64,000 bases of DNA from Magnolia sinica (lineage: Eukaryota; Streptophyta; Magnoliopsida; Magnoliales; Magnoliaceae). A program made the position numbers and the translations under genes. The notes below the pieces were generated by a model. That model ran no database searches. It worked only from the letters and a program-made list of their open reading frames with translations, and was not told the origin of the DNA. Shown here one piece after another: positions 11,533-64,000 of the stretch (the stretch's first letter is position 1; the number at the start of each line of letters is the position of its first letter). The stretch is taken from contig NC_080574.1 in NCBI RefSeq assembly GCF_029962835.1, positions 23,100,001-23,164,000 of the forward strand, given 5' to 3'.

Positions 11533-11799
11533 GAAGAGGCTCTTCCAAATGATGAATGAACTTCCCACCATATTTGAGATTGTGACTGGGACTGCCAAAA
11601 AGCAACCAAGGGAGAAACCATCAGCCACCCCCAACAGCAGCAGCAAGAGCAAGTCAAGCTCGAAGACGGTGAGTCTCTGTGATTTACATTTTCAACTCCA
11701 CATGTCTCAGTCCCTCTATGTAATACTTTACATTGTAAACAGCAGAAGGTCAGATTGAATTGAATCTTAAAATCAGATAGTAACATTGCCATTCAAACA

Positions 11800-11889
<90 letters not shown>

Positions 11890-12124
11890 GCTCACCTGCG
11901 CACCTCATCACCTGTGATATGCGTGCAAAATCTGAACCATCCATGTGATGCAGCACCCCATGAAACACCCAGGGCCCAACTTTTACCCTGATCCTTGGGC
12001 CCTGGGGATTTCACAGGGTGCTACATCACGTGGATGGTTCAGATTTTGGGCTCATATCACAGGTGATGAGTTCTCGAAAAGTTCCTCACGAGTTTTCGTG
12101 AGAACTGGGGTGCAGGGGAGCATT

Positions 12125-12166
<42 letters not shown>

Positions 12167-13719
12167 CTGAGGCTCCTTCTTCCCTTTGAAAGAATCATCA
12201 AAAGCATGGAAAATGTTTGAAACATGGATAAGTAAGATGTGGCCCACGCAACCATATTTTAACATTTCTCTTCGAGCTCAATAAATTCATACCATTACAT
12301 GGCATGCACTACACAGTACAATCTAACATACAAAGTAGTCAGCTTAGTATGTTTTGTATGGTTTCACTTCATTTTATCCATAAGTTTGAAATTTAAAACC
12401 ATCATCATCATTATTTAAGCCTCATCCCAACTAATTGGGGTCAGGTACATGAATCATGTTCCTCCATTCCACTCTATCAAGGACCATATCCTCAATTAAA
12501 CCATAGGTCATTGAGTGTTTTCTTACTACACCTGTCCAGTGTTGTCAGATGCAATCGCATATGCCATTTTGATAGTATATACTGCATATGCCATAGTGGC
12601 ATATGAGGTTTTATGACTATTGGGCATTATGCGGTGGTCACATACAAAAATATGCTATCGCATCGGTCACAAGTATGTGATTTTGCAATCGCATACCCAT
12701 CGAATGACACCAATAAAATTTCTATCCTAAACATAATCGTATGCCCATCAAAATGACATCAATAAAATTTCCTAGTCTAAATGATCTCTGTTCAAAATCA
12801 CATCAATCAAATTTCTATGGTGTTTTTCTTCACATTTTTTGGTATGTGCATTCATTTGAGTACTTGTTATTCGACTTGTTATAGTCTAATAGTCTAATAT
12901 ATGTAATAAATATAACAAAATTTTAATGCAATTGGTAATAAAACTATAAAATAATTCCCCAAACTCCCAAGTAATTTTACTCTTTTTTTTTTTTCCAATT
13001 TAGATTTTTTTTTTTTTCCGAACAAAAAATTATGGGAAGTTGTGCAATGGCATATACGATTGTGCAATCACATATGCGCATAGCCCCTTGGGTCACATAT
13101 GATCGGATATGCCATTTGATAACAATGCCTCCATCCACATCCTTTTGGGCCTTTTTCCCCTTGCCCTTTTAGAGCCTTTAACTTGAGCCAACTCACTCCT
13201 AACAGTTGCAGTTCTTGCTGGCCGTTGTGCATGGCCAAACCATCAAATTCTCCTTTCTCTCAGCTTGTTGCCTATTTGTGTTATTTCTAAGTTTCCCCAT
13301 ATGCATTCAGTTCTATATTTCAACGTCGTCATCTTAGATTCAAGTTGAACTGTGATCCACGGGAATGACATGAGATTGCACGATCTAAATTGCAGATCAT
13401 AAATTCAATTTTGCTGATAAATCTTCTTCTTCTTTTTTTTTGGCTCCAGCAACCGAAACCATCAGACTCTCAAACAAAGCCATTGAAAATGCAGCCCCCA
13501 AAGGAAGATGAGGACAGCAGGGACGAAGAGGAGGAAGAGCAAGGGTTGACACTGTGCGGAGCATGCGGCGAGAACTATGCAAACGACGAGTTCTGGATCT
13601 GCTGCGACATATGTGAGAGATGGTTCCATGGCAAGTGCGTTAAAATAACTCCTGCCAGGGCTGAGCATATCAAGCAGTACAAGTGCCCCGCTTGCAGTAA
13701 CAAGAGGGCAAGAGTCTAG
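11533..13719 (+). CDS. Alfin-like PHD-finger protein, C-terminal two exons only
   Basis: Two exons are clear. The first, 11533-11668, starts after CACAG and ends before GTGAGT. It encodes [19 protein letters not shown] and a Ser/Lys-rich linker. The second, 13450-13719, starts after CTCCAG and ends in TAG. It encodes an acidic stretch and a PHD finger with the C4HC3 ligands (CGAC, CCDIC, FHGKC, CPAC) and the aromatic residues EFW and RWFHG, which in this family read H3K4me2/3. Alfin-like proteins are nuclear, about 250 aa, with an N-terminal PAL domain (DUF3594). The exons for that domain, which should precede KRLF, were not found in 6300-11530. They either lie beyond the left edge, giving an intron over 11.5 kb filled with transposons, or are lost. 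The neighbourhood points to the AL6/AL7 clade. Phases at both visible junctions agree. Confidence 0.9.
11805..11886. repeat. (TA)n followed by (GA)n microsatellite
   Basis: There are about 18 TA units (11805-11840) and then 23 GA units (11841-11886) inside the Alfin-like intron. The GA tract abuts the left end of the foldback element at 11887. Confidence 0.95.
11887..12124. mobile_element. Foldback MITE bracketed by GA and CT microsatellites
   Basis: The left arm (AATGCTCACCTGCGCACC, then TCATCACCTGTGATATG, then CCAGGGCCCAA) pairs with the inverse of the right arm ending GGTGCAGGGGAGCATT. The arms are about 100 bp each. The right arm has an extra segment of about 35 bp containing its own hairpin (CTCACGA-GTTT-TCGTGAG). 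Outside the left arm is (GA)n and outside the right arm (CT)n at 12127-12163, so the microsatellites are themselves inverted repeats. Confidence 0.75.
12399..13335 (-). mobile_element. RTE-type LINE 3' end, split by a TIR element
   Basis: The minus strand ends GACCCCAATTAGTTGGGATG followed by a (TGA)n-like tail (12399-12416). This is the hallmark 3' end of plant RTE LINEs, which finish in a short tandem repeat. The 5' side continues to about 12536 and resumes at 13128-13335, with the element at 12537-13127 between. It lies in the Alfin-like intron. Confidence 0.65.
12537..13127. mobile_element. CATATGC-rich TIR element inserted in the RTE fragment
   Basis: The left end CAGTGTTGTCAGATG and the inverse of the right end, CATTGTTATCAAATG, match at 12 of 15 positions. 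The body repeats words such as GCATATGCC and GCGATTGCATATG in both directions. There is no open frame. No clean target duplication was found, so the superfamily (hAT suspected) is open. Confidence 0.6.
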
Positions 13720-14440
13720 AAAGGCAATCGGGCAGTTGGAAAGATAGGTTCAGGAGTTTGGGAAACCCATATAGATAGGTTTTGAAAGTTTGGGCACCAT
13801 CTCAGAAGCAGGGAGTAAGTTGTGAATGATACGCAGGCGCAAGTCGGGATTTTGGTATTTAGACTTTTTTTTTTCTCTCTGTGTCCTCAGTCGTATATAT
13901 TCTTGGAAATCATGGTGTCTTTGAAGTCTTAACAACAGCTAGGTAGAACGTGGCTACGTGTTTACCTTGACTATCTATTCCATATATTTATATAAAGCAA
14001 TCATGTTGCTCTGTGAAACATTTCTTACTTTCTGTTGTCACAGATCTGTTTAGGTTCTCATATAGCTCTATAGACTTGTCTCAGGAAATGTACATATAGG
14101 CTATTGAGGAGTTCAGTTTGATTTCTTCGACAATCATTCCAGAATTGTGTGTGGGAAATCATTTGTGTATCATGGTGGGTGTGCCCTTGCTACTGCAGCT
14201 TCCCCTGTTATTTTGCAGGTTCTCCTGGCAATGGCTTTGTGTACTTCTTCTTCTTTGAACTAACTGCACTTCTTCTCATATGTGTCTGCCTGCTCAGGAA
14301 CAGTCAATGCCCTTGGCAGTAGACTCTTCGTGTTTAAGCTTTAATGTGATAGTTTGATAATGTTTACTAAATGAGATTGAAATAGCTCACTCCAAGCTTC
14401 TTCTTCTTCTTCTTCTTCTTCTTTTAATGAAAGTTTACTA
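13720..14440 (+). other. Alfin-like 3' flank with (CTT)n microsatellite
   Basis: This holds the likely 3' untranslated region and downstream flank of the Alfin-like gene. A (CTT)n tract lies at 14397-14423. No other gene signal is seen. Confidence 0.5.
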
Positions 14441-14449
14441 TTTATTGCA

Positions 14450-14910
14450 ATGCATAGGTGAGGAATCTACACCAAGAAGGAGATTGTAAAATCAGGAACA
14501 GGCTACCAAAGAAGCCAAAAGACAATGCTCAATAGACATAACCAAATTAGTTCATGGCGCTAGATATAACTTTGCCTTACTGAAGACTGCCTTTGGCAGC
14601 TTGCACCATTTTTTAATGCATCTTTTGCTCATTCTACCGACATTGCCCAAGACCAGCTGCATGAGAGAGAGGGAGGGAGGGCGGGAGCCTCCATTAGCTT
14701 CCATAATGAGCTATTCTACCTTCATGCTTAGGGGAGGAACATCTCACTGATAGCTTTTAGCATCACCCAATGAATCTGGAATAGACTGAGAAACCTATTC
14801 CAGACTTGGTACAAGCTCAATGCAAGAAGAGGCGGTCAACCAACTGTGTGTCCTGCATGCACATAACACAAACATTGGGAATGATCATCTACCTCTCTTG
14901 GAGCAACCTT
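14450..14910 (-). mobile_element. LINE zinc-binding region fragment
   Basis: Minus-strand translation resembles the Cys-containing region after reverse transcriptase in plant L1 LINEs: a CVLCACR-like start, then spaced Trp and Leu residues and a run through NVGRMSKRC. It is short, broken in frame and carries no other LINE domain. Confidence 0.45.
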
Positions 14911-15434: not shown

Positions 15435-17720
15435 TCACCAGTAATCCTTGCAGGAGCACTCCCCATCCTTGAACCTATGAAACCTGTTATTATCCCTCAC
15501 CACTATCTCCCTTCCCACCAATTTTGAAATCATCTTTATAGCTAGATGGCAATCCCCACACACTCTAAGATTCTTCACCACCCTAATCACGGCCCCTACT
15601 TCACTGACCACTAGCCCAAATCCAATGGCTAGCTTCTCACTGTGTGTCCCCACCATCTCTTCCTTCTCTTCCTCTTCAACGTCTCTCAAAACACAGCTCT
15701 TATCAGCCATGTATCCTAGCTCCCTCATCCTCTTCCCCAACTCTGCCAAGACCCCATAAATCTCCTCTGTCCGCTCATGCGACTGGTCTCCAGCTATAAA
15801 CCGATGGATTTTCTTATTGAATTCAACCCAACTATACCCTGTCGTCTTCTTCACCCCCTTCTCTCTCATCGCCTTCCTAACTCCCTCGACATCTTCCCAC
15901 CTCCCTACCGATGCATATATATTCGAGAGCAATATGTAGTTGCCCGAATTCTCTGGCTCGAGTTCAAAGAGCTGACCTGCAGCAAGCTCCCCAAGCTCGA
16001 CACATCTGTGGATACGGCAGGCATTGAGCAGAGCCCCATAGACTCCGGCGTGTGGCTTCATTGGCATTTTGTCTACTAGTCTCTTGGCTTCATCCAATTC
16101 ACCAGCGCGGCCCAGTAGATCAACCATGCAGGCATAGTGATCTACTTCCGGGTGTTCGATTGATTCAAAAATCCAGTGGCCTTCTTCTGATAGACCAGCA
16201 TGGCTACAGGCAGTTAAAACGCCAATGAACGTTATCCTATCTGGTTTGATGCCCTCCTCTTGCATTTTTGACATCAGATCAAAAGCTTCAAAACCATGGC
16301 CATGGGCTGCAAATCCTGCAATCAGTGAATTATATGAAACTATGTCTCGTGACGGCATGTCATGGAAAACTCTCTTAGCTTCTTCCATGCTTCCACATCT
16401 CGAATACATGAAAATCAGTGAATTGTACCCAGAAATGCTCAGTTGGATTTTATTTCTGGCAATGAAATCCACTACCCATCGACCCAATTCTAGAGTCCCA
16501 AGATGCCCACAGGCTGAAACAACACTAACCACAGTCACTTCATCTGGCTTCATGTTTTTTGTTGTGGACATTTCTTTGAAGAGCTCAACTGCTGTAGCGG
16601 ACTGGCCGTTTTGTGCATAACCAGCTATCATTGAATTCCACGAAATGACGTTCTTTTCAGGCATCTTATCAAAGAACTCCCTCGCTAACATCAAATCGCC
16701 ATTCCTTGCATAAGCTGATATCATTGCATTCCAAGAAACCGGATTCCGTACTGTCATCTCATCAAAAATCTTCCTTGCAGTCTCTAGACTCCCACATTTT
16801 GCGTACATATCGAGCAATGCTGTCCTAACAAAGCAATTCATCTCTATTGCCCTCCGGTCAAGGGACCCAACAAGCGATTCCGCAAGCCGAAGATCACCAT
16901 GAGCTGAGCATGATGAGATGACCGTGACCCATGTCGTCTCATCAGGCTGAACTCCCGCATCCATCATCTCCTCAAACAATCTCAGCCCTTCTTCTGCCAG
17001 CCCGTTCTGCACATAACCTGACAGCATCGCATTCCATGACACCACGCTTCTGATAGGCATCTCCTCGAAAAATCTCCTCGCATTATCCAGATCACTGCAC
17101 TTAGAATACCCACTAACCATGGCAGTCCAAGAGATGATATTCCTCTCCGGCATCATATCAAAGACCCGGCGAGCTTCCACTTCATCACCCCATTTCCAGT
17201 ACCCAGACACCATTGAATTCCAATCAGCAATTGCTTTCTCAGGCATTTCATCAAACACCTTCCGAGCAACCTCGATCGGCCCATGCTTCGCATACATATC
17301 CATCACCGCATTCCGTATGTACCGGTCCGAATCATAACCCAATTTCAGAACATGCGCTTGGACTCCGACGCCTAATTTTCCAGCCGATTTTATCACGGTC
17401 GGGAAGACAAAGGCGTCTGGCCTTACCCCGGAGCTCTGCATTCGGCCAAACAGCGAGATCACATCATCGTGCGCGCCGAATTGAGAGTACAACTTAAGCA
17501 TGCATGTGAAGAGGAGAACATTTGGGTGAGGCACGGAATCAAACAGCTGACGGGCATAGGCGAGCGGAGCCCGAAAGCGCCCACAGTGGCCGAGGAGGGT
17601 GGCAATCCAATAGCTTTGGTGGTGGAGGCAATGGTGAATGATCTGTGCATGGAATTGTATGAGGTGATTAACGTTCTTCACGTCGCGGGCAATATTGCCT
17701 AAGTGCGACATGTGTGGCAC
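15435..17720 (-). CDS. PLS-class pentatricopeptide repeat protein with full E and DYW domains
   Basis: This is an intronless frame of 761 residues. PPR proteins of this class bind organellar RNA, and those with a DYW domain act in C-to-U editing. Roughly a dozen PLS-type repeats occupy about residues 45-575 (for example VSWNAMLSGYVQNG and NCFVRTALLDMYAKCG), then the E region. The DYW deaminase ends the protein: H693-S-E695, CGDCH with C721 and C724, a second zinc group H748/C755/C757, and terminal DYW. All expected catalytic and zinc residues are present. The N terminus is a plausible organelle-targeting region; a second Met at residue 4 is an alternative start. It closely recalls Arabidopsis At1g14470 (DMYAKHGPIEVARKVFDEM, YWKWGDEVEARRVFDMMPE), a call supported by the syntenic neighbours. 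The exact RNA target cannot be read from sequence. Confidence 0.95.
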   Translation of the reverse strand: MPHMSHLGNIARDVKNVNHLIQFHAQIIHHCLHHQSYWIATLLGHCGRFRAPLAYARQLFDSVPHPNVLLFTCMLKLYSQFGAHDDVISLFGRMQSSGVRPDAFVFPTVIKSAGKLGVGVQAHVLKLGYDSDRYIRNAVMDMYAKHGPIEVARKVFDEMPEKAIADWNSMVSGYWKWGDEVEARRVFDMMPERNIISWTAMVSGYSKCSDLDNARRFFEEMPIRSVVSWNAMLSGYVQNGLAEEGLRLFEEMMDAGVQPDETTWVTVISSCSAHGDLRLAESLVGSLDRRAIEMNCFVRTALLDMYAKCGSLETARKIFDEMTVRNPVSWNAMISAYARNGDLMLAREFFDKMPEKNVISWNSMIAGYAQNGQSATAVELFKEMSTTKNMKPDEVTVVSVVSACGHLGTLELGRWVVDFIARNKIQLSISGYNSLIFMYSRCGSMEEAKRVFHDMPSRDIVSYNSLIAGFAAHGHGFEAFDLMSKMQEEGIKPDRITFIGVLTACSHAGLSEEGHWIFESIEHPEVDHYACMVDLLGRAGELDEAKRLVDKMPMKPHAGVYGALLNACRIHRCVELGELAAGQLFELEPENSGNYILLSNIYASVGRWEDVEGVRKAMREKGVKKTTGYSWVEFNKKIHRFIAGDQSHERTEEIYGVLAELGKRMRELGYMADKSCVLRDVEEEEKEEMVGTHSEKLAIGFGLVVSEVGAVIRVVKNLRVCGDCHLAIKMISKLVGREIVVRDNNRFHRFKDGECSCKDYW

Positions 17721-21417: not shown

Positions 21418-24400
21418 ATGGCCCAAACTCAAATTCAATCCCTGATGAAAGGGATGGTTTTAAGGAGCTTCTTCAAGAGCTTTCCCTCTTCTACATCAAA
21501 CAGAATACCGAAATCTCTTCCTACTCAAATCCACTTCCGAGGAAAGTCCTTCTCTACTTGTGCTGGTGCTAGTAGCAGCAGTAACAGCTCCACTAGAGAT
21601 TTCCTGTCGTTATCGGACGAGCAGCTGATGGCCCAGTGCGACATGGACACCTTCAAGGCATCGGGTCCCGGCGGCCAGCACCGTAACAAGCGAGAGAGTG
21701 CCGTCCGCCTCAAGCACACCCCCACCGGAATCATCTCCCAGGTACTTCTTCTTCTATCTTTCTCTGTATGGATCAAGCTGGCAATGGACTCCTCAGGTGG
21801 GCCACACCATTGAAATCGGTATACGTACAACAATCTTACCCAGTGTACATGCGTGGCCCACCCGATGAGTGGATCGGCCTGATTCTTGTGCTAGATGATC
21901 TTCGTGATGGTTCCCACCTTTTCACGGCTCGGATGTTGGATGTCCTGCATCGTGACAAGTTTGCAGGAGAGAAGGTGCAGCATGGGAGGCTTGACATGCT
22001 GAGTTGTGTGCGATCATTCCTCTTTAGTCATTGCCTAGAAGGTGTTCGATGAAATTCTATTCGGCAGCCATGTCGAAATGTGGTTCGATGACATGCGGGA
22101 CACAATTTCGTCCATTTCAACTTTAGAACGCTAACTATGCCGTTACACACGTGACATGCGTTCTTCAAGTTTTATTTTCTTTAAATTGTATAATGATATT
22201 CTAAAATGTCAGTATCAGTTGAGCGTACAAAGGTAATGGTGGCAATCCGAGTGGGCACCCCTATGAATGAGGATGACATGTGGCGCATGTGCAGGAGTTT
22301 CAAATCTCATGGTGAATTTTATGGGGGCGGATTAGGTGTCGCCCTGACTGTAGGGCCCGCCTTGTTGTATGTGTAATATATCCACACCGTCCATCTGTTC
22401 TTACAGCTTATTTTATGGCATGAACCCAAAATAAGCATATCCAAATCTCAGGTGGACCACACTATACCATCCAACCTGTTGATAAGGTCACAGCAACCGG
22501 GATGAAGGGAAAAGAGCAAATATCAGCTTTATCCAAAACTTTAGTGGCCCACAATGAGTATTTAATGGTTAAACACCACTGTTTCCTGTAGTGTGGTCCA
22601 CCTGAAATTTGGATCTGCTTCATTATTCGTCTCATGCCCTAAAATGATCTGGAAAAAGAGATGACAGTGTGGATATACTACACATACATCAAGGTGGGCC
22701 CCACGGTCAGGGCTGCACTGTGTTTGGTGAGGCTGTGGGGCCGCACCTTATTTGCTCCCGAATTTTATGTGGGTGGTAACACACGACATGCTCAGTCTGA
22801 TTCTACCAGCACCACTTGGCAGCTCCACATTGACAGGTGTGTGTGTGTGTGCGCATGCGGGCGCGCGAGGGGGTATGATCGTTAATGGGGTGCTCTATGA
22901 CACTCATGGAATGGGCATTTCACACACTTGACCTCAATGCATTGCCATTTCACATGGTTCACAATTGATGCGTACTTGGTTTCCATTCAGTTTGTGCATT
23001 TCACCTTCTATCAAGCAAGGTGACAGTCGTCTTTTCTCTGTTTCAACCAACGTGCCTTGTTTTTGCAGGCTGTGGAGGACCGGTCACAGCATAAGAATCG
23101 TGCGTCAGCCCTAGCTCGTTTACGCACTCTTTTGGCTCTTAAAGGTTACATCAAAATGACATTCATTTTGTTTTTGCTTGTTTGATTTGCTTATGCATTG
23201 TTTTTGCTTGTTTTAGTTGCTTATGCAGATGAGACAGCTTAGGTAGTTTAAATGGTCACTTTCAAAATTCCTGATTTTGTAGTATGTGATGTTTTCTTCT
23301 TGCATTTTAGTTGATATGATATGTATAAGGGCCATTTGGATCATTTTCTTGGTTTTGGTGTTGTATGAAATGTGAAGGAAACAGACTCGTTTGATTTTAC
23401 GGTGCAAATGGAACAGCTTATAAACACTGTTTAAAAAAGAAAAAGAAAAGAAAAAGGAGACAATTTGTAAAATGTTAAGAGGTCATTTTGGAACTTCCCA
23501 ATTTGGAGTTACTAGAACTGCAAATGGAACGACTTGTATGATTCTCTATTCTTCTTGCTTGTTTGATTATGATATGCAAATGAAACGAACTTATTTTGAA
23601 AATGATCATTTCAAACTTTCCTGATTAAAAGTTGTGGGAATTGCAAATGAATAAAAAGTATGGGTTTTATTTGCATGCACAGGTGAATTCGAATTATGAT
23701 ATGCATATGAAACAAATTCTATTTACGAGCAGCCATATGGTTGTTTTTGTTATTTCTTTGTTGAAGTTTCAGTTCTTAGCTAGGCTGTCATTTCCATTTA
23801 AGCAGCAAATATAAGAAAGCCCATTTAACTTTCTCTGTCCAAAACCAGTCTGATGTTTCTGTTGTCCTAACCTCTTAGTTCTCTGTTCGATTTGCTGGGT
23901 TTCCCCAAGTCAAAATGGAAATGAATATCTGTTGATGGGGAGCATCTTCTTTTATTGAACTAGTCAGGAATGCGATAGACCTCGAAGAATACAAGCCTCC
24001 TCTGGAACTTCTTCAGATTCTTCCTGCAAAGTCGACGATTAGAGGGTCGGACGTCGGTCCCCAAATTGGACCCAATAACTCAAAGTTTGCATTGGTATCA
24101 ATTCTCAATATTTTCTTATACTAGAACTGAAAGTGTGGTTTGCTTGGATTTTGATTGTGTGCAAGAGTAGATTATGTATATCAGTTCCTTTTCTTATGTA
24201 GGGAATGAGAGCATTATTGGATCTGATTTATGCTGTTGATGGTTCTGTAGCAGATGCAGCAAAACATTTGGGGTACATGATACATGGCTCTTGAAATTTC
24301 TTACCAATTTAAAGCTTTATGCATGCCTATTCAATGTTATAAATGCAACTAGATGCCCAAATGTAAAGCTTTTTATAGTCACCTTCTTTGATCAGATGAC

Positions 24401-25751
24401 TGGCCATGGAATCTTTGAAGCCACAACTTCTGCTTGGCTAGAATCACCGAAACTCATTGACATGGAAAGGACCATTTTGATTTCCTCATTTCTGCACCTT
24501 TAGACTCCCACAATGCTGGAGCCTACCAGATTCCCCATGCTATAGAGTTCTCGCTCAATCCCAATTTCCAAACGAATGCTTCACCCACTGGCCAATATGA
24601 TTATTCTTTTTTAATCTGACGATCAATTACTGCACCCAATCCTTTTTCCAAGTTCAGTGCCAATATTCACTGAAATGATGGATCCCACTAGAATAGGAGT
24701 CTTTTGATTCTATCGATGATCCTTGTCATAGGCAAGGTTCAAATATTGGAATGTATTGCAGTGCTTCAGGAATGTTATATGAAAACTTCATCCAGCGATA
24801 TGGTGTGAACTTCCATGTGGTGATAGGGAAATATATTTGTAAGTGTCCTTTGCATCACTTAGTGTCATTGATGCATTTCAATACAAACACTTGGTATTAG
24901 AGTATCATCGATACATTCCTGTCAGTATAATCTTAATAAATTAAGCATGATGGTAAGGCTGATGATAGCAGTAGGTACCATATCACAAATATAGTGGTAA
25001 TACAATACATTCAAACAATGCCGGGAACCTTGGTTGCAGGCAATTAGGCATCTTTGAAGATATGCCTATTCCTCCAAAGCTGAAAAGACCTGCTTTTCAG
25101 ATTCTTGCACACATACAGATACATCAAAACCTACGAGGCCAAGACAATCTTTTATTATACATAAAGCAGAAAGCTTATGCATGTTGCAAATTTTCTTTTG
25201 CCCTCCATTGTATTGCAGGTTAAGCACAGGTGCTCTAGCACGGTTGATATTATCGGACGATTCTCTCCGTAAGGAAGTTAATGAGCTGAGGACATCTAAG
25301 GTAGAAACTACATAAATAGAATTGCTTTGTAATTCAGCTTGCTATTTAAAATAGTCACTGGTGATTGTAGTTCTCAACATATGATGTTCCTGTGTATCGT
25401 AGTGTTGCATGGATCGATATAAACAATGTATGGAAATGAATCATATTTTAAATGCAAAAATGAATCAGGTCATATGATTCAGACTAACTAATGATTTTAA
25501 ATATGAGATTAAATCACATTATAAGATTTCAGCCTATGTATGGATCTGTATTTCCAGTGTTACTTCACCCTTTTATCTACCTCTCCACTTTTGAGCTGCA
25601 AATCCATTTGAATTAGATTTGGATATCCATGCTGACTTCTTCCATGTGAATGACTAATCCTTCTCATCGATTTTCAAATAATCATATGTTTAGGAATGCA
25701 CAAAATAACCGCTTCTGATCTTCCTTGTAGGGTATGAAGCCACTCAAGTGA
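21418..25751 (+). CDS. Class I peptide release factor-like protein (GGQ), organellar
   Basis: Six exons join in phase: 21418-21741, 23069-23144, 23964-24094, 24202-24272, 25219-25300 and 25731-25751 (TGA), totalling 705 bp and 234 aa. Residues 1-60 are Ser-, Arg- and Lys-rich with few acidic residues, a probable plastid or mitochondrial transit peptide. The catalytic loop follows, [10 protein letters not shown], with GGQ at 85-87; this motif enters the ribosome's peptidyl-transferase centre and triggers peptidyl-tRNA hydrolysis. The codon-recognition domain of full RF1/RF2 is absent, so the protein belongs with the short ICT1/C12orf65-type rescue or release-factor-like proteins. It resembles, from memory, Arabidopsis At1g62850. 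The last 150 residues lack a known domain name but are typical of that group ([28 protein letters not shown]). An alternative start is the Met at residue 10. Every intron has GT-AG ends. Confidence 0.92.
22324..22775. repeat. Foldback MITE (GTGGACCAC family), copy 2, in release-factor intron 1
   Basis: The left end GGGGGCGGATTAGGTGTCGCCC pairs loosely with the right end near CGCACCTTATTTGCTCC. The two halves mirror each other: CTCAGGTGGACCACACTATA against TAGTGTGGTCCACCTGAAAT. It has no coding capacity and lies within intron 1. Confidence 0.75.
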
Positions 25752-37079: not shown

Positions 37080-37985
37080 CTAATCTAAAGTCTCTATCCA
37101 AAGCTTCATATCCTCTTCATGCTCTAGAAGCATCCACACTTCTCTGTTTTCCTTTTTCTGGGTAAATGATTTTAGAGATTTAAAGTACAATGGATCTGGT
37201 CTTCTTATTGATGACATGTTGTTTAATTTCATTAAACATTCTTTGATAGTGGGTCCTTCTGCATCTGTCTTTTCCAACTGATGTATGAGTGCACCTACGC
37301 TGCTTTGGATATCCTTCTTCCTATTTGGTTTATGCCGTTTGCGTTGATGAGCTTCTAAATCGACAAGCGGTGCCTGTTGGCATTCTTTAGTAGCTGGATT
37401 TATGTTAACACCAAGACTGTCTAAATTGATTTCGTTTTCACTCATAGGTGTATTTGAAGGTATTTGAGATGACGACCTAGAATACTCCTCAGGAAGATTG
37501 TCGTTATGTGTTGTGTAGGCTTCAGCACCAGTTGCAACAAAACCTTCAAATAAGGCCCTCAATTCGTTCTCAAGTGCTAGTGGTCTATTTCGGAATTGAG
37601 TTGCATTCTTATTTGCCTACAATAAAAATATCATAAAATCATATCTTAATTTGATGAAAGACAGATTCTTATGTAACTATATAACAAAAATTCATAATTA
37701 CCTTTATGTACTCATCCCATCTTTCTTCGGGCCAATTGAATTGGCCCATCAATGCATTGTACCCATGTCCCGTAATGCTTATCAATTTAATCCACGTAGT
37801 ATACTATACTTTCAAATAATCCCATAAATTCTTCAATTGCTTTTGATTAAATTCTTTTCCCATACACTTGTTCAACTCAATTATTAATTTGTTCTATGCT
37901 TGTTTGGTCAAGCTTGACCCCGACCTACCACCCTTATGTGCTTCTTCAAGACAACAATCAATAAATATTTTTTTCTCCAAATCTT
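37080..37985 (-). pseudogene. Harbinger-type Myb/SANT-like partner protein, truncated
   Basis: Minus-strand translation from about 37900 gives KNLWDYLKV, then ITGHGYNALMGQFNWPEERWDEYIK, followed after a short gap by RALFEGFVATGAEAYTTHND. These are the signature words of the Myb/SANT-like DNA-binding protein carried by plant PIF/Harbinger elements. The downstream half (37080-37562) is open and ends LWIETLD. The start region contains stops and is cut at about 37985 by the foldback MITE beginning near 38000. It lies in the same orientation upstream of the transposase. Confidence 0.8.
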
Positions 37986-52133: not shown

Positions 52134-55100
52134 ATGTCAAATGCCCGTGTTGGTCCAAGTGGGCTCCACCTGAAGAAGGAGCTTACTGCTCTTAGAAAAG
52201 CAAGGTTCTTACGTGACCCAGAAACTAGTTCGTCTTGGAGGTCTCCTTTGAGTCATGGCTCGCTAGCTGCTAGATATGCTTGGAACTATGGTAATGGTGC
52301 CGGAGGAAGCTCTAATGATGCAAAAACCCCCGTTGGCTTGTCAGAACTTGACTCTAGTTTGCCTCCAAGAAGCGCAAACAACCGGAAAAAGGTGTTCCTC
52401 TACAATTGGAGGCATCAATCTGGCATGTCCAGTGACAGTGGGGTGAAATTGGATAGGGACAACAGGACCGGATCTGCTCCAGGAAGTCCTGATGACAGCT
52501 TGAGCGATGCTCAAAAGGGAGATTCTAGGAGCGACACATATCTTGAGGACCCCATAGTGGTCTTTAGAGCGAGAGAGGGAAGCACCGCGTCACAAACAAG
52601 AAGAGTGGCTAGGAAATTGAAGAAAAATACCATCTCGAAACAACGCTTTATCAGAAACTCCATAATTTCAAAGCACTTGGATCTTCCATCCAGCTCTTTA
52701 GGAGTTCTTTCTGTTGGGCAGTCTGATGATACAGAGTACTGCAACTCCGAGGATTTACAGCTTTCAGTGCAAAAGTTTGGTCAGAAAACGGGATACACTT
52801 CATGCTCGGCGTCACCATTATTGTCTGGATATGAGAATTGGTCCTACTCATCCAAAGTATTAAAGAAAACCAGAAGGGCAGACTCATCTTATTCCTATAC
52901 CCCTGCATCAACTAGTTCTTTCAATAGATATGGAGACCAATACCCCAGCACTGTTGGGTCTTGGGATGGTACTACAGCTTCTTTCGATGAGGATGAATTG
53001 GATCATTTAGATTTACCTAGAAGCCAAGGATGTGGAATTTCTTGCTATTGGTCGAAAAGAACAAAGCACAGGGGCTGTGGAGGTTGTTATTCTCCTTCAC
53101 TTTCTGATACCCTAAGGAGAAAAGGAAGTAGCATTTTCTGTGGAAGCCAGTCACTATATCCTAAACAAAGACCATTGCCTTCACACAAGCAGAAACGTTT
53201 TTCAAAAACTTCCAACAGTCTTCCCTTGTTGACTAACAGTCACGGTGGTGGAGGCTCATCTATAGATACAGCAAGTGATGAGCTGTCAACTAACTTTGGG
53301 GAGCTTGACTTGGAAGCTTCGAGTCGGTTGGATGGAAGGAGGTGGTCAAGCTGCAGAAGCCAAGAAGGACTAGAATTAGCATTAACTATGGGAGTGGATG
53401 AAGCAACAGATCATAGAAGCTTGAGCCAGAAATATAGGCCTAGGTCTTTTGATGAATTGATTGGTCAGAATATTGCTGCCCAATCACTTAAAAATGCCAT
53501 TGCAAGGGGAAGGATTGCCCCTGTGTATCTCTTTCAAGGTCCTCGTGGAACGGGGAAAACATCAACGGCAAGGATATTTGCAGCGGCTTTGAATTGTCCG
53601 TCCACCGATGAAGCCAAACCATGCGGGTTATGTAGGGAATGCACTGATTTTGCCTCTGGAAAGAGTACAAATGTGAGGGAAGTGGATGCTACCAATAAGA
53701 GCAGGTTAGATAGAGTAAGGCACCTGTTGAAGAAGTTGTCTGTTGCTCCGCCATTTTCACAGTACAAAGTCTTCATTATCAATGAATGCCACATGTTACC
53801 ATCCAAAGCATGGTCGGCATTTCTGAAGTTCCTTGAAGAACCACCATCACGGGTTGTCTTCATATTTGTAACTATTGATCCAGACAGCTTGCCTCGTACC
53901 GTTGTGTCGCGGTGTCAAAGATACCTATTCCCCAAGATCAAAGATGCTGATATAGTGACCAGGCTGAAGAAGCTTTGTGCTGAAGAAAATTTGGATATTG
54001 AAGCAGATGCTCTGGATCTAATTGCATTGAATTCTGATGGTTCACTTCGAGATGCAGAAATGATGTTAGACCAATTGAGTTTGCTGGGCAAAAGAATCAC
54101 CACATCTCTAGTAAATGATCTTGTAAGTTTGCCTCCCGTGCTCATTATTTCTGTCTGTTTATAGGTCTCTCACCGATGTTATGGAAATTTTCTGGTACAG
54201 TTCAGGCCAAGTTTTTAAAAAGCCTTTTTGATGTCTGAGTCCAATTTGGGCAATTCAATGAAAAATCCATTGATTTTAATAAAAGAATCTATTGGACTTT
54301 ATAAAGAATTGTACTCCTTACCCCGTGCCTAAATTAATGGTCCTGAGCAGTGGTGCTACTCAGGCGGGTCAGGTCAGGTTGAGGGTCGACCCGGACACGA
54401 CATGAATTCCAACCTGAATTCCTCTATACCCAACCCGAACCCACCCAACTTGACCCAAATACATGTGATTTCCCCCAAAACCGACCTAACCTGACCAGAA
54501 ATTGCTCAACCTGAACCCATCCTGATTTCAAATAGGGTTGGCATTTTCCAGCCCTGACCCAACCTGAGGAACCCAATCTGACCTGAACTCGGGTTGGGTC
54601 AATCGGGTTTGTGTTGACCTGGACCCAAGTTGCAGTCCTAGTCTTAACTTGGCAGTCCTGACTCCAATGAAATTTTTAATACTGGTCACTACAACGATGC
54701 ATCTTCTCTACTTCTGAACACAAAACAAGATCATAAGATACTTGTTTTTGATGCTTCTTAAGCACTTTATATGGTAGGATCTGAATTGACTTTATTCATG
54801 CATTGTTGCTAGGTTGGAGTTGTTTCAGATGAGAAATTACTTGATCTTTTGGAGTTAGCCATGTCATCAGAAACTGCAGAAACAGTTAAAAGAGCCAGAG
54901 AACTGATGAATTCTGGTGTTGATCCGATTGCCTTGATGTCTCAATTAGCAGGCCTCATCATGGATATTATTGCTGGAACTTACCGGCTGGTTGATTCAAG
55001 ATGCAGTGCTTCATCTTTTGGTGGGAGAAGTTGTAAGTGCACAAGCATATTCTTTGTTATTGAATTTCCCTATTACTTAAATCAGTACTAAATTAGATAG

Positions 55101-58100
55101 TTTTCCCTGTAAGGAAGTTCACAATAACACAGAACCCACTCCTCATATAGCATGAAATGCATGATTTTGTGCTTGGTGTGGTTTGAGTGTGCATGCATGG
55201 GTAAGATCATTTGCCACATGCATGTTTTTGTTATGTGTTATGCCTGCATTCACAATCCATGGTAAAGCAGAGGAGAATAGTATGGACAAATATGCTGAAG
55301 TATTATATTCTCAGATAATATTCAGAAGCATTCTTCTGTAATGGTTAGGGACATTCATCTCCTTCAAGGAGGTCATGAGTTTGAAGCTAAAAGCCTTCAA
55401 AATTTATAATTTTATCAATAAAAAAGTATTTCCCTAAGGTGCATTTTGGTTGCAACAAATCATGAAGTTTCATGATATTCCATGATTAGTCAGTCTAATT
55501 TTGGGGGAAATTTCATAAAATTTCATGATATTTGGTGCAACCTGACGCGCACCCTTCATAATTTCATTATTGTTGTAGTTCTCTATATGCCTCTTTTGGA
55601 TGTTTTAAGAAGCCAAAATTCATAGCTAGTCATCAAATAAGCATCATATCTTAAAAGATTTCTGCATCAGATGCTCCAGCCAACCGCTTGCTTCAGGCAC
55701 ACACGATCTTTTTTTTTTTCTTGGTTTCTTGCTTTTTTGGTATTATTATCTTTTTTATTTTTTATAATACTAATGTATTCTTTCAACTACTGACAACCAT
55801 TGCCATGTATACAGAACTTCAGCTAGAAAGCAATATACTGTACTTAGAAATTTATTATCATCTTGACAGTTGACAAACTCTTGGGAGTTTTTTACCTTTT
55901 CTAAATCTTTTCCAATACTAAAATACTTTTTAAAGTTTGAGTTGGATGTCAATAGCTGATTTTATCTTGTTTTGTTCTTTTTCCCCCCTCTGAATTGTTC
56001 TCCAGTGACTGAAGTAGAGTTGGAGAGATTAAAGCAAGCTCTAAAGATTCTTTCAGAAGCTGACAAGCAGCTAAGGGTTTCAAGTGAGCGCTCAACATGG
56101 TTTACTGCAGCTCTGCTACAGCTCGGTTCTGGGTGTTCACCAGCACCTACATACTCGAGCAGCAATAGCAAACAAACACAGAAGAAGGTGAAAGCAGGTG
56201 AACTGGACACTGGCATGGAAGTTTTGGCATATGGGAAGAAACCTGATGGTTCACATGCATTGTGGAAGTCTCGTTCAGCTTCAATGCTTAGAACAGTCGA
56301 TGGCTATAGTAGCCCTCTTGTCGATCCATCATCCAGCAGATCGATGGTAGAACACTTCAGTTTAAATTCCTTGCCCCCAAGCAGTCAATTCGAGGAGGGC
56401 AGTGCACTGGCTGCCGCTCGTAAAGATACTACAGCTGGAAATATGGTTTTTGGATCTGTGAGCCCAAATAAATTGGATGAGATCTGGAGAAGTTGTATAG
56501 AAAGGTGCCATTCAAAGACATTGAGGCAGTTGTTATGCACCCATGGAAAGCTAGTGTCGATTTCAGAATATGAAGGTATGCATTAATCTATCTTATTTGG
56601 TATGTGAGGCATTCAGGTTCTTAGGTAAATTATCAAGTGCAGTTGCTCTTCCAAGAGAAGAAGAGGAAAAGGAGGAAGAAGAAGGATGCTTATCAATTGC
56701 AAGGAACATTCCTTTTACGCTTTCTTTTTATGAGAATGTCAGTTGTTTGACAGGATATTTGGTATAGCTGCAATGCAATTAGGGCTGTCAATGGGCCAGG
56801 TTGGTCCACTGTGCTTCCAGGTCTGGCCTGCCTTGGGCTGGGCTTGGGCTAGAGTATCAGGCTTGAAAGCCAGTTTGGGCTTAAAATTTCAACCCTGTTT
56901 GTTAGTCAGGCCACTAAGCCCTTCCTGGGTGAATTGGAATCCTTAGTTGTGTTTGGCACTGTTGATGGAATCTACTAGAATAAAAAATTCGTGTTTGGCA
57001 TGTGGAGTGAAACCTCGTCAGCATGCATCAGACGGATTCTACGAATTCTTACACATGGCCCACTGTGAAGTTTATGTGAAATCCACCCCAATCATCAGGT
57101 GCATCACTCCATTTTAGTTGTATGGTCCAAAAAATCAGCTCGGTCTATGATTCAGGCAGGCCATACAAAGGGAAACAATTGGTAGAGGGATACCCACCTG
57201 TTGCGTGCACAGGCCGGGCTTGGGCCATGGTTTTATTTTTTGGGCGAGACTTGGACAGACCTTGACCTTGCTTGTTGAGAGCCCTAGATCCAATTATACG
57301 CAGTCTGTATTTTTCTTTCTAGGCATGAAGGGCTGCTAGATTGTGGGTGGCATTAACATGGACTGTCCGATATTTTTCTCCTTGGCATATGATTCAAGGA
57401 CTCCAAACTGACATTCAAATTCTCAAACTTGACTTAGGAATCTGATTTCAACTTGGCCAAGTCAGTGGATGGCTATCCAGTCATGGTGAAAATGGGTAGA
57501 AGCAATCATCAACCTGGCCAGTTATTTTTATAAGAACAGAGTTGGATTTGGTATTTGAATCCTAGCCAAACTGAGTTGACTAGGTTGAATTCAAGTTGTT
57601 CTGCAAGTTTTTTCTTTGTTTTCTTTTTCTTTTTCAACATTGTTGCTGACCCACTTAACCATGATAGCATATAGTTAAAGATTTAGTATGTGTGTAAAAA
57701 TTGTGATATTCATTGATCAAAACCCAACTTGCTTTAGCTTAGTTTGTGTTGTGTGCATGACTGATTTGTTGTGTAAGTCAGCTTGGTCATACAGATATCC
57801 CTCCAAAGTCTTTTTTGAAATTCGGTGAATGCTACTCTCTCTCTCTCTCTCTAATAAGCTACTTCATCCAGGTGTTTTCATTGCATATATAGCATTTGGG
57901 GATGGAAATATCAAATCCAGAGCTGAGAGATTCTTGAGCAGCATCACAAATTCATTTGAAATAGTTCTGAGACATGATGTGGAAGTCAGAATAGGACTTA
58001 TGCGAGATGAGGAAAATTCTATAAAAGCATCAAAACCAGTGGAGATGCAGCCAGAATCCATGGCCCAGAAGCAGATGGAAATGGTCGGGGTGATGGATAA

Positions 58101-60775
58101 GGAGAGGAAAGAGGATTGTAATCAATTTAATGGTCCTGATGATCAGGACCCACACAAAGAACCCCTCAAAGTACACAGAAAAAGCTTTAGTGAACCTGAG
58201 GGCATGGTGCGAAGAATGTTAGATCCGTGTGATGGCTCTTTGGTTCCAGATGAAAGCTTCCGAACGGCAACTGCAGCTATCTTCTCCACAGAAGGAAATA
58301 ATGAAGTATGCAGCACAGAGGAGAAAAGTCAGGAAATTCCAATGCAAATGATACGCTCGGCCATTGATGAGCAGAGGCTGGAGAGCGCATGGCTACAAGC
58401 TGCAGAAAAAAGCACACCTGGATCAGTTAGTCGGTTGAAACCTGAGAGGAATCAAGTACTGCCACAGGATGGCATCTCCCATCAGGAGGAAATGGCATCT
58501 GTGATGGCATTGGCCGTGTCCTCCAAGCATTGGGAGGATGAACTTAACCATGATATTAAGGCCTTGAAAATTAATCAAGGCCAAGACCAAGTGGACCAGA
58601 GCACCAAACGGGCTGATCACTATGCCATGTCTCCAAGCTTATTGCATAGTAACAGCTTTGTGGCCAGTTTCGACAAAGAGAACCTGTGAGTTACTTCTTT
58701 TCATTGATTTATTTTCTTTGCAGAAGCTTTTTTTAAATTGATTATGTGGCAATGTTGCATCTATTTTCTTGTTTTAGCTTGAACCTGGTCTTTCTAAAAC
58801 CATTAGACAAATGGGGTATGCTCGAATGGTACCAGTACTGCCAGATGTGGAGCCCATGTGATGTTTTCAGACCATCCGACCCATCCATCAGATTTGTCAC
58901 CTCAAGAAACACTGAAGGCCTAATACTCATTCAGATCCAGAATGAAGTGGGGCACAACAAAGGAAACAAGCTGGTAGGGAAATCCTACCCTCAAATTTAA
59001 TAGGGGCACACCTGAGTTGTAAAACAGCCTTGTTTTTGGGCTGACCCTTCATCTGGCGAGGATGAAGGGTCTGAATGGATTGGATTCCTATATATAAAAC
59101 ATGGTAGGCCTCCCACTCTAATCAACAGTAGCGTTCCCTCAACATGTTCCATGCATTATGGCGAACCTGAGTTTTGGCTTGGGCTAATTTTTGAGGTCTG
59201 AGGATATTTTGAGGGAAACATCTGATGGATGGGTTGGATTCCATGAACACATCACTGGGCCCCACATCTGGCTAGTACCACTGAGGGGTTACAGTGGTAC
59301 CAGTACCACTGGAGCGTGTCCCTAAACAAATTGTGGGTACTTCCTATTACTTCCCACCCTCACTAAAACCTGCTGATGGACAAGGTCTGGCCCTCATAGG
59401 GTTAAACAGACAAAATCTGGCTCTCTTACGCAAATTTGATTTTTGGAACACCTGTAAGTTTGAGTATCCCATGATTCTGATAATTTTAAATTAATTCGTT
59501 ATACGCTTTTTCAAGTTTTGCTAAGTCCATGCACAGCTCTGCGCCAGACAACCTGGCATGCGTGTGGGACATCTGAGGAATGCATCTGCTGAGTCCGTCA
59601 TTTAGATGCCTGGCTTGGAAATTAGGCCAGTCTGCTCATCAGGCTAGCCACACGAGTATGTTGAATGTTGACCATTGGAAATATTTTTAAAGCAAATTTT
59701 TTTTTTTGGGTACACGTGGTTGACCTTGAACAGCCTGATTTCTTGTTATATTGGCCCTACCTGATGCACGGCCTGGGTATCCCTCACATGTTCCAGGTTG
59801 GAACGAGTGGCTGCCTGTGGGCTTGGTAAAGCTCATGCTTTTCAAGTGTTTACAGCCATGTTTGGAATGTCCACCAAATACAAATGGGAAAATTATATTA
59901 ATGTGAGTGGGGCCATTTTTGTGGAGGGAGCATTGTGGGATGCACCAAATGGCTCCATCCCTCCATCTCAGCAAAATACATTCCATCACTGTCTCATTCT
60001 TGGGCATTATCAAACCAGGCTTAACACTTTGGCAAAGACTGTGTTTTTGGCTCCTGCAGCTTTTTCTCCCAAATGGGCGAAAATGTTATAGTCTTGGACC
60101 CTGTTATTTACATCTGTTTACTGTCTTTCTTCGGCATACTGTACTTCATCTCTTACTCTTTGGGTTGTTTATCTGTAGGGGATATGAATCAGGACCCGGC
60201 TGCAATGGACTTCTTTGTTGGAAAACCACCAAACCATATAAAGGAAAGGTAGGTCATTGAAGTGTGCTTCTCATTCTCACTTTTCCTTCTGCTAGAAGTC
60301 TCATGTAGGTCCTGTTTGACAGGCAGGACAAGAAAGGTAAAGAAACCAAAAATGGAAATTGTAATTATTATTTAATGAGAAGTGTATTTCATTTTTAGGG
60401 GTATGTTCGTTTCGAATAGAAGTCCCTAATTCATTAGACAATAGTCATTTTGAATCCTGTGCTAGAGAACTGCAATGGTAGAAAAGGCTGATGATTCCTT
60501 CTGGAATCCACTGTTCTCTATGCAAATCAAACACATAAGATAACCTCTTGTAAGAGGATGGTTTCTTTTCCTTTTTTTCCCCTGCTTTTCAAACAGGCCC
60601 TTAAGCTAAAATAGACAAGGTGAATCACTGTTTATTTATTTATTTTGTTTTGTTTTGTTTTGTTTATGACCAGGTTAATCAAGGAACCCCCATTCGATCT
60701 CATAAGCCTGGGCGACTTCTATGGTTTGGGCAACGTGGGAAGTCCAAGACAATGGAAAACAGATTCAGAAGATAA
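52134..60775 (+). CDS. STI: STICHEL, DnaX-like AAA+ protein controlling trichome branching
   Basis: Six exons join in phase: 52134-54122, 54813-55032, 56006-56575, 57872-58685, 60179-60248 and 60674-60775 (TAA), giving 1254 aa. Residues 1-425 are a Ser-rich, basic N-terminal region with conserved words (LHLKKELTALRKARFLRDP, SDTLRRKGSSIFCGSQS, LSTNFGELDLEA). The clamp-loader domain follows at about 430-665: YRPRSFDELIGQ, Walker A GPRGTGKT at 469-476, a zinc group C488/C497/C500/C503, a Walker B-like IINECH (N550), and SRC at 592-594. The middle region (VGVVSDEKLLDLLELA, RSTWFTAALLQLGS) and C terminus (GVFIAYIAFG, CNGLLCWKTTKP) match Arabidopsis STI (At2g02480) from memory. STI is a plant paralogue of the bacterial DNA polymerase III gamma/tau family that sets branch number in trichomes and probably acts outside replication. 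A GGGTT-rich element lies in intron 1, a hAT-like element in intron 3, and a foldback element in intron 4. Confidence 0.95.
54340..54645. repeat. CCCGACC/GGGTT-rich repeat in STICHEL intron 1
   Basis: Words such as CAACCTGAACCCATCC and GACCCAACCTGAGGAACCC match the style of the TAGGGCTG hAT-like elements. The ends are unclear. Confidence 0.5.
56780..57286. mobile_element. hAT-like element (TAGGGCTG ends), in STICHEL intron 3
   Basis: It begins TAGGGCTGTCAA and ends with the inverse of TAGGGCTCTCAA (11 of 12 positions). Flanks AATGCAAT and GATCCAAT agree at 6 of 8, an aged 8-bp duplication. The interior is GGGCC-rich at the ends and may contain a smaller insertion. Confidence 0.65.
58820..59325. 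repeat. Foldback element with long arms in STICHEL intron 4
   Basis: The left arm GGTACCAGTACTGCCAGATG and following GTGATGTTTTCAGACC with GACCCATCCATCAGAT pair with the inverse on the right (ATCTGATGGATGGGTTGG, then CACATCTGGCTAGTACC and GGTACCAGTACCACTGGAGC). It is distinct from the GTGGACCAC family. Confidence 0.7.
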
Positions 60776-60875: not shown

Positions 60876-61363
60876 GCAAGAAGGAACTTGCGAGGCTGTC
60901 ATCTGCTTCTGTTTTTGATAATTTTCAATGCCAATTTTCATGAGATGAAATAAATAAAAATGGAGGAAAGGTGAGATCATCAGTTTTTCCACTGATTTAC
61001 ATTTGGGGACGAGAGAAATCGAAAATTGATTAGTTGAGGTTGGATATGCCATCCGCCTCTTTGGTTTGTGAGGTTTTAAGACTGAGATGAGTCCAGTGTG
61101 ACTCGTGTGACTCACACTCAGGCACTGTTGGACCCTATCTGGCTTAACACCACGAGTCAGCATTGTAAATTGGGGGTGACTCGGCCCGGCTCACCTCATC
61201 AAAGGTACATCTGTGATGGTCCAATGGGAGCTTGGACTCATCCGCCTGCTCCTGCCTTATAGATCGCTGCTTACATTTCGGTGCATCTGTTTGGTTTCCT
61301 TGCTCTCATGGTTTGGATGCATAAATAGTCATGGGATCCTACGACGGATGGGCCATGCATCCA
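60876..61363. other. STICHEL 3' flank
   Basis: The stop at 60773-60775 is followed by the likely 3' untranslated region. No further gene is seen; a GACTCGTGTGACTCACACTC palindrome-rich spot lies near 61100. Confidence 0.4.
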
Positions 61364-61700
61364 AATGGGGCGGATTATGTGTTACCCTGATTGTGGGGCC
61401 ATCCTTTTTTCCATATCAAACTTAAACAGATCCAGATCTCAGGTGGACCATGCCATATAAAACAGTGGTGATTGAATGCCTGCCATTAAAAACGACCTAG
61501 GGCCCACTGTAATGTTTATTTGCCAGCCGACCTGTTGATGAGGCCAAACAGACGTGAATGAAGGGAAAATACAAAAAGATCAGCTTGATCCAAAAATGGC
61601 TGGACAGCGTGGATACACAACATATTCATCAAGGTGGCCCCATATGGTCAGGGAAACACCTAGTAATATGTTATCTGGGTAACACCTAATCCGCTCCCCC
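61364..61700. repeat. Foldback MITE (GTGGACCAC family), copy 6
   Basis: The left end GGGGCGGATTATGTGTTACCC pairs with the right end GGGTAACACCTAATCCGCTCC. The interior shares CAGGTGGACCATGCCATATA and GTGGTGATTGAATGCC with the other copies. Confidence 0.82.
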
Positions 61701-62159
61701 GTCAAAAGCCTACGGTCGGGAATGATGGGAAGATTTTCAAGGCGTGACCTATCTACGATGGGGCCTACTAGATAAACGATATATGTTACTCAAAAACTAG
61801 AATATTTTAAATGGATCTTGTTTGATGATCTGTATCATCTGCCGCTGGAGTGAATAGCCAACAGTGAAAGAACCACATCCTAACCATCCAATCAATAGCC
61901 TATTTGATAAGCAGCACGGTAGAATAATCCCCTTCTCTCAGTCCATTTCTCTGCAAAACATTTACATGTCCTTTGAACGGTGTTCAATTCAACGAGGCAT
62001 CCGTGATTGCTTCCGCTAACCATGATACTAACCAAGCACTGGATACTGACTGGCTAGTGGCCAGAATGTTACTCGGGGAACCGCACTCATCTACAACACC
62101 TGCTTGCGTAAAATACCCTAGTTCTTTAGTTCTTTGGGCCCACTTTTTTAATATGTGAA

Positions 62160-62776
62160 TAGGGCTGAAAGTCGGGCGGGTTGGGTTGGGTTGGGTCGGG
62201 TCGGGTTGGTGCTCAACCTTAGCCCAACCCAAGGTTCCTATACCTCAACCCTAACCCAACCCAACCTTACCTTGGGTCAAGAATTCTCAACCCTAGCCCA
62301 ACCCAAATGAGCTTGGTCGGGTAGATATATGCTAATATTTTCATTATTACATTAGTCTCCTGTATTTTCAATACACCTCTTATTTTTTGTACCTATAATT
62401 TTATTAAAAATATATGTAGTTATTTATCGTAAAAAAGTTTATTTTTCCTAAACAAACAAGCTAAAATATAGGACAATTATGGAAGAGAGAAATCCGGTCG
62501 TATCTTGTTAGCTTGAGTCATCGGAAATGACGTTGACCATTGAAACCCGACGGCATTGGAATTTTTTGTACCTTCAACACAATCAATCGATCGGGTTTAG
62601 GTTTAGGTTGGGTCGGACAACCCGAGACCTCAACACGGGCCCAACCAAAGTTTTATTGGGTTGGTATGTGTATGGCCCAAGCCTGAGACCAAACCCTATT
62701 CATCTTGCCCAAGCCCAACCTAATGTCGGGTTGGTCACTGGTTAGTCGGGTTGAACCCGCCCAACTTTTAGCCCTA
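62160..62776. mobile_element. Non-autonomous hAT-like element (TAGGGCTG ends), copy 2
   Basis: It begins TAGGGCTGAAAGTCGGGCGG and ends with the inverse of TAGGGCTAAAAGTTGGGCGG. Perfect 8-bp duplications TATGTGAA lie at 62152-62159 and 62777-62784. The interior matches 27515-28253 in inverse orientation (for example CTAATGTAATAATGAAAAT). No transposase is present. Confidence 0.87.
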
Positions 62777-62793
62777 TATGTGAAATCTGAACG

Positions 62794-63282
62794 CGGATTG
62801 CGTCCTACATCGGTCCTCACCAGCTAGGAACGGGTAACAGCTTTGAGTAGCCACCGTGATGTATAGGTTTTATGACGCCGTCCATCTATTTTTCTATCAT
62901 TCTATGAGAAAGTACAAAAATTTAGTCAGCTCCAAGGCCCAAGCGGACCACACCACAGGAAGCAGCGGTGATAATGATTCTCACCTTTAAAACTTTTCTA
63001 AGGCCCACGGCGATGTATATTTGCCATCCAACCTATTCCCTTGCGAAGATAAAACACAAATATCAGCTCCATCCATAACTCCTTTGGCTCGCAAGAAGTT
63101 TTAAACGGTAAGAGTTTAATCCCCATTATGTAGTCCGCATCTTTTTCTGATCTGCCTCAGTTTTGGGCTTAAAAAAAATGGACGGACGGTTTAGATAAGA
63201 CCCATACATTACAGTGGCTGCTCAAAGCCCCTGTCCGTCCCAGCTGGAGACAAGCGGGGCCAGGACGCAATCCGCGTCGGCA
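62794..63282. repeat. Foldback MITE (GTGGACCAC family), copy 7
   Basis: The terminal words ACGCGGATTGCGTCC and its exact inverse GGACGCAATCCGCGT lie at the two ends. The core (AAGCGGACCACACCACAGGA, AATATCAGCTCCATCC) matches the family. It lies 575 bp before the NDUFB3 start. Confidence 0.8.
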
Positions 63283-63857
63283 CTGCGCACTTCCGTTGAT
63301 TCGAAAAGACCAAAATGTCCTCACCTAACGAAGCAAGAGACAATTTTCTGTCCTGAGGAGCTGTATGATACGAGACCCGAGTATTTACACATTGCACACG
63401 GGTTTTCAAACGATGACAAGTGGGTCCATTTTCCAGTAATCAAGATCGTCCCTCTGTTGCATCACATGATCGATGGAGTATGCCTCAAAAAAGATTCTAG
63501 AATGGAAGAATCCAGGAGCCAAACTCGAGGCTCTTTTCAGTTGAATGCGGACTGCTATTTGTATTCTTCTTCTTAACCGTCCATCCTTAAGACATCATCG
63601 AAAGGTCAGGTTCTGTAATTTCGAGAAAAAACTTTCAAGCAATGTCCATCGAAGGTGGGAAGCACCAGGTTGATGGCCTGGATTGCCGAGTATGGGCCCC
63701 ACTTGTCAGGAACGAAACCCGCGTCTAGGGACGATGCAGATCGCGCATCCTATGATTTCTCCCGTCTCATAAAAAAGAACTGCATCATCCCAAGACCTCT
63801 CATTTCATCTCCCACCAACCCTAGAAGAAGAAGGAGAAAGTTAAAATCGGAGAAGCG
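63283..63857 (+). promoter_or_regulatory. Upstream region of NDUFB3
   Basis: The intergenic space between the last MITE and the NDUFB3 ATG is about 575 bp. A purine-rich leader AGAAGAAGGAGAAAG lies just before the start. No clear TATA box is seen. Confidence 0.45.
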
Positions 63858-64000
63858 ATGGGGAAGCCGCTGGGACCGACGGGTGAGTTCTTCAAGAGGA
63901 GAGACGAATGGCGGAAGCATCCGATGCTGGGTAACCAGCTGAGGCACGCCACTCCTGGCCTCGGCATCGCTATCGTCGCCTTTGGAATCTACCTCGTCGG
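63858..64000 (+). CDS. NADH dehydrogenase 1 beta subcomplex subunit 3 (B12), N-terminal part
   Basis: The frame reads MGKPLGPTGEFFKRRDEWRK, then HPMLGNQLRHATPGLGIAIV and AFGIYLVG, running off the window. This is the B12/NDUFB3 subunit of mitochondrial complex I, a small single-pass inner-membrane protein of about 70 aa in plants. The visible part has the conserved EFFKRRDEWRKHPML motif and the start of its membrane segment (GLGIAIVAFGIYLVG). From memory it matches Arabidopsis At2g02510 and At1g14450. About two thirds of the protein is in view. Its position after STICHEL repeats the Arabidopsis order. Confidence 0.9.
   Translation, partial: MGKPLGPTGEFFKRRDEWRKHPMLGNQLRHATPGLGIAIVAFGIYLV

Follow-up and report, generated by a model that had tools for sequence, protein, structure and literature searches.

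Does a gene block that appears undivided in one part of the Magnolia sinica genome represent the ancestral form of a segment that Arabidopsis holds twice, or is it itself one of two copies? The window analysed here, a stretch of 64,000 nucleotides (C2:23100001-23164000, 23.10-23.16 Mb), was described in a preliminary description as an unduplicated block of five genes. A Pfam domain scan placed the expected domains at each position and thereby bore out the gene order, which is Alfin-like, PPR-DYW, GGQ release factor, STICHEL and B12/NDUFB3. Of these, PPR-DYW alone is read from the minus strand, the other four being on the plus strand; two of the five, Alfin-like and B12, are only partly inside the window. 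As nuclear DNA of a Magnoliaceae genome the window is ordinary, and what looked undivided within 64 kb proved to be one of two copies when the whole genome was searched. With a probability of about 0.93, it is one of the two products of the single whole-genome duplication (WGD) known in the Magnolia lineage, after which genes were lost unevenly.

The genome searched comprised 1,838,573,281 bases in 127 contigs. A second linked copy was found at C4:20.42-20.79 Mb, where gene searches located Alfin-like, STICHEL and ZF-HD genes, arranged and oriented as they are on C2, giving three gene pairs with all six genes on the plus strand. The two STICHEL genes, at C2:23152134(+) and C4:20496171(+) (20496171-20498171), are 73% identical, and the next best match after that on C4 reached 62% over the ATPase part only. 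Two stretches of C4 were read, one around the Alfin-like gene (20418510-20425749) and one with STICHEL ending at 20516000, and the ZF-HD gene was read separately. In the C4 STICHEL gene, exon 1 is followed by exons 2 and 3 and by the first part of exon 4, at which the stretch read ends. Five Alfin-like matches were present genome-wide, two of them at C2:23086912(+) and C4:20420010(+), the latter lying 76 kb before the C4 STICHEL gene on the same strand. The ZF-HD pair, two of 12 matches in the genome, was found at C4:20791539(+) and C2:23449673(+), which is 295 and 298 kb, respectively, past the start of STICHEL on the same contig.

The likeness of the two contigs extends further. ZF-HD genes correspond in order and strand at three positions, 1.76, 11.70 and 23.45 Mb on C2 and 1.50, 10.17 and 20.79 Mb on C4, the last pair being the only one compared by sequence, and these positions suggest homology of C2 and C4 at chromosome scale. 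Two genes flanking the block had no match at C4:20.4-20.8 Mb and therefore add nothing to the C4 block. These are an aminotransferase-domain gene downstream (C2:23231597), for which all 12 candidates were scored, and, upstream, a gene named by eye as DEAD-box helicase-like (C2:23007400; 105 of 127 candidates scored). The former, past B12, resembles a methionine S-methyltransferase.

Synonymous divergence (dS) between the two copies was calculated by the NG86, LWL85 and YN00 methods. For STICHEL exon 1, in which 490 of 674 residues are identical, the values were 0.749, 0.592 and 0.600, respectively, with an NG86 nonsynonymous divergence (dN) of 0.163. For ZF-HD (195 of 252 residues identical), they were 0.637, 0.606 and 0.708. 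Exon 3 of the Alfin-like genes on C2 and C4 formed the closest of 10 pairs, with a nucleotide distance of 0.10 compared to 0.15-0.29 for the others, and its 79 codons gave a dS of 0.496, 0.430 and 0.344. In PMC10999834, the M. sinica genome is given as 1.84 Gb with a single WGD at a synonymous divergence (Ks) of about 0.75, and with collinearity depths of 2:3 to grape and 2:1 to Amborella. The STICHEL and ZF-HD pairs, at 0.59-0.75 over the three methods, lie near this peak for collinear pairs, and no difference was seen between the C2/C4 pair and the WGD blocks of that paper, whose own block list was not compared. The relationship between C2 and C4 is one of ordinary duplication and gene loss, and its origin is most likely the known genome doubling.

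The two copies differ in what they have kept. The C2 copy holds Alfin-like, PPR-DYW, release factor, STICHEL, B12 and ZF-HD genes, and the C4 copy holds Alfin-like, STICHEL and ZF-HD genes and a pair of Whirly genes. No counterparts of the PPR, release-factor or B12 genes were present at the C4 block among the matches from the whole-genome searches. Whirly matches (15 of 15 candidates scored) were confined to the C4 pair and to C13, with none on C2, and the first C4 match lies 1.13 Mb beyond the STICHEL start. The C4 Whirly genes form a tandem pair at C4:21625188 and 21654717, about 30 kb apart. Before the WGD, the segment would have included at least Alfin-like, STICHEL and ZF-HD, with Whirly probably linked further out; uneven loss afterwards would have left six genes on C2 and the Alfin-like, STICHEL, ZF-HD and Whirly pair set on C4. 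Where a gene is present on C2 alone, we infer that C4 lost it rather than that C2 gained it later. The C2 copy would thus look complete because the C4 copy appears to have lost more, and not because the segment was never duplicated.

Chance agreement was estimated on the assumption of even gene placement, after the distances were already known and with clustering ignored. On these terms, the probability was 4e-6 that both contigs would have a ZF-HD gene no more than 0.3 Mb downstream of STICHEL, and 3e-4 that one of the four other Alfin-like genes would have a STICHEL paralogue within 80 kb. For one of the three Whirly loci to lie no more than 1.2 Mb from the C4 STICHEL gene it was 0.004, and for seven of the 12 ZF-HD genes to fall on C2 and C4 it was 4e-4.

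Several points weigh against descent of the C2/C4 pair from the Magnolia WGD. The genome searches cover Magnolia's own genome only. By two of the three methods the STICHEL dS is 0.59-0.60, compared to the published 0.75, and the Alfin-like exon gives only 0.34-0.50 over its 79 codons. The C4 Alfin-like gene was seen as exon 3 only, and exons 4-5 were not found within C4:20418510-20425749. The absences from C4 rest on whole-genome searches, with C4:20425750-20494670 (69 kb) and the sequence past 20516000, except for ZF-HD, unread. Lastly, MIOX, which as At1g14520 is the next gene beyond AL7 in Arabidopsis, would be expected near Alfin-like but is absent from both C2 and C4, its 12 genome matches being on C1, C7 and C13.

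A possibility that retains some weight, without being favoured, is that the PPR gene and the release factor arrived late on C2 and were not old members of the block. The PPR-DYW gene (15435..17711, minus strand) is a single open frame with PPR, E motif and DYW_deaminase (1.7e-39) domains by Pfam. Among the best 59 of 1668 candidates, its next best match shares 42% identity along most of the length, and the matches listed from the whole-genome search include no counterpart at C4:20.4-20.5 Mb. The release-factor gene, which likewise has no C4 counterpart among the matches listed, encodes a GGQ protein of the ICT1/MTRFR-like type in five coding exons (21418..25315, plus strand; RF-1 domain 7.3e-11), the exons being read by eye from frame translations, and its matches in the PDB were RF1/RF2 and C12orf65. 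Late arrival would also agree with PMC1892557, which indicates that PPR genes often differ in position between related plant segments and in its table assigns At1g14470 to class PLS, not DYW. As At1g14470 is so classed and is without a DYW domain, its identity with the gene in the window is unproven. On the other side, At1g14470, a PPR gene, falls by locus number between the B12 and Alfin loci of Arabidopsis chromosome 1, simple loss on C4 would give the same pattern, and the release factor has introns and is therefore not a plain retrocopy. In the genome, the release factor gave one strong match, on C2, and seven weak ones, five of which contain stops. The five stop-bearing matches are to the first exon and are scattered over C19, C9 (two), C28 and C8, as if pieces of this exon had been copied repeatedly. 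No paper was returned by a literature search that combined At1g62850 with "peptide chain release factor" (the locus alone was not searched).

It is very improbable that C2 and C4 go back instead to a far earlier duplication, in an ancestor of the angiosperms, which would leave only one of them as the true counterpart of the Arabidopsis blocks. The C2/C4 pair is unrooted, which leaves room for such an event, but dS values of 0.59-0.75 agree with the Magnolia WGD and do not agree with an earlier one. There were nine other STICHEL pairs, of which the four with the C5 locus were left out of the dS calculation; in all five that were computed, the NG86 dS was 2.89 or beyond calculation. Whirly exons were also observed on C13 (39.24-39.25 Mb), with a divergent Alfin-like gene 3.5 Mb away, and these two are perhaps the trace of an older duplication.

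Least probable of all is that the block exists once, with the window as its unduplicated ancestral version: the matches listed include no good second copy of the B12, PPR or release-factor gene, but the second copies of Alfin-like, STICHEL and ZF-HD are grouped on C4 with order and orientation unchanged, with a dS near the published WGD value, and so refute both the "ancestral, unduplicated" and the "single pre-duplication version" descriptions.

The remaining question is how the two Magnolia copies relate to the Arabidopsis blocks. The alpha duplication is a Brassicaceae event, so any magnoliid gene is expected to fall outside both Arabidopsis copies, and such a position is therefore not by itself proof of an unduplicated state. 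The Arabidopsis STICHEL loci are taken here to be At1g14460 and At2g02480, and the gene order between Arabidopsis locus numbers is likewise assumed. Table 1 of PMC4202327 lists the B12 genes At1g14450 and At2g02510 as an alpha-WGD pair, and the appendix of PMC3485569 gives At1g14510 and At2g02470 as Alfin genes, At1g14440 and At2g02540 as ZF-HD genes and At1g14410 and At2g02740 as Whirly genes. ZF-HD and Whirly were taken as neighbours of both blocks because of these locus numbers. By locus number, then, the Alfin, B12, ZF-HD and Whirly families are found in both segments, At1g14410-At1g14510 and At2g02470-At2g02740. The available portions of a Whirly paper (PMC11359715) and a complex I paper (PMC7447434) offered little beyond locus names.

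In Magnolia, Alfin-like, STICHEL, B12 and ZF-HD are linked on C2, with ZF-HD downstream of STICHEL on both contigs and Whirly downstream on C4 only. The Arabidopsis pair is a separate duplication from C2/C4, and each of its segments carries a B12 and a Whirly gene, whereas in Magnolia B12 was found on C2 only and Whirly, as between C2 and C4, on C4 only. Arabidopsis would then have passed through its own alpha duplication of the same old linkage. For B12, residue counts over 50 positions, made without a tree and with one Arabidopsis copy, gave 45 identities between Arabidopsis B12-A and Brassica, compared to 34 and 36 between the window protein and these two, respectively, and 36 to Vigna, counts that are compatible with a place outside the Arabidopsis copies.

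The proposal that the block predates the Arabidopsis duplication holds in part. A linkage of Alfin-like, STICHEL and B12 older than alpha is supported, given the alpha pair At1g14450/At2g02510 and the downstream ZF-HD and Whirly genes, and only the unduplicated state fails, on account of the C4 copy. C2 and C4 would be orthologous to the Arabidopsis blocks, and the linkage of Alfin-like, STICHEL, B12 and ZF-HD, probably with Whirly, most likely predates the magnoliid-eudicot split. Such an old linkage is already expected from angiosperm collinearity studies; it can help annotation and the dating of gene losses. More tentatively, Alfin-like, STICHEL and ZF-HD might be an old angiosperm linkage group that was kept in duplicate after independent doublings in Magnolia and Brassicaceae, which, if true, would point to parallel, dosage-driven keeping of the same linked regulators. 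No comparison of such a block was found in the portions available of the Alfin-like synteny literature (PMC6814106, PMC8609783 and PMC10421131), and the word STICHEL was absent among the matches listed for a literature search combining it with magnoliid terms.

The remaining genes of the window were characterised as follows. The STICHEL-type AAA protein is encoded in about four coding exons (52134..58689, plus strand) and contains DNA_pol3_delta2 (7.5e-39), DNAX lid, gamma3 and the STICHEL domain PF23007 (1.4e-13), with a match to DnaX in the PDB. The 5' part of the complex I subunit B12/NDUFB3 gene (63858..64000, plus strand; NDUF_B12 2.9e-6) reaches the window edge, and the gene extends 67 bases beyond it to end at C2:23164067. 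It matched the Arabidopsis, Brassica and Vigna subunits in the PDB, and its single match in the genome was on C2 (seven of seven candidates scored). The 27 kb gap between the release factor and STICHEL is gene-poor, with three open frames of at least 120 residues. One of these (37083-37562, minus strand, 160 residues) has no Pfam family and has something of the look of a Myb/SANT-like protein of a DNA transposon.

The Alfin-like gene begins 17.5 kb upstream of the window, where exons 1-3 were located at C2:23082479-23087144, and a ferric-reductase-like gene lies upstream of it at C2:23.06 Mb. Only exons 4 and 5 are in the window. Exon 4 (11533..11668, plus strand; splice sites read) carries the end of the Alfin domain, Pfam positions 105-126, with an E value of 8.4e-4 that is just under the Pfam cut-off on that exon alone. 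Exon 5 (13450..13719, plus strand; acceptor read) carries the PHD finger (3.2e-10) and the stop, and matched ALFIN-LIKE 1, ALFIN-LIKE 3 and 1we9 in the PDB. When the exons were joined by their splice sites, a complete protein of 253 amino acids was obtained, with PF12165 (1.9e-68) and PHD.

Intron 3 of this gene is about 24.4 kb in length (C2:23087145-23111532) and contains a pair of long direct repeats, at 479-1688 and 3851-5061 of the window (span 479..5061, no strand assigned), which are 97.4% identical over 1211 bp and resemble long terminal repeats. A third, more diverged repeat (82-86%) lies beside them. Between the two long repeats, at 1861-2247, there is a tandem array with a 42-base period and seven copies in register, which translates as a proline-rich repeat of 14 residues in the minus-strand open frame 1547-2521.

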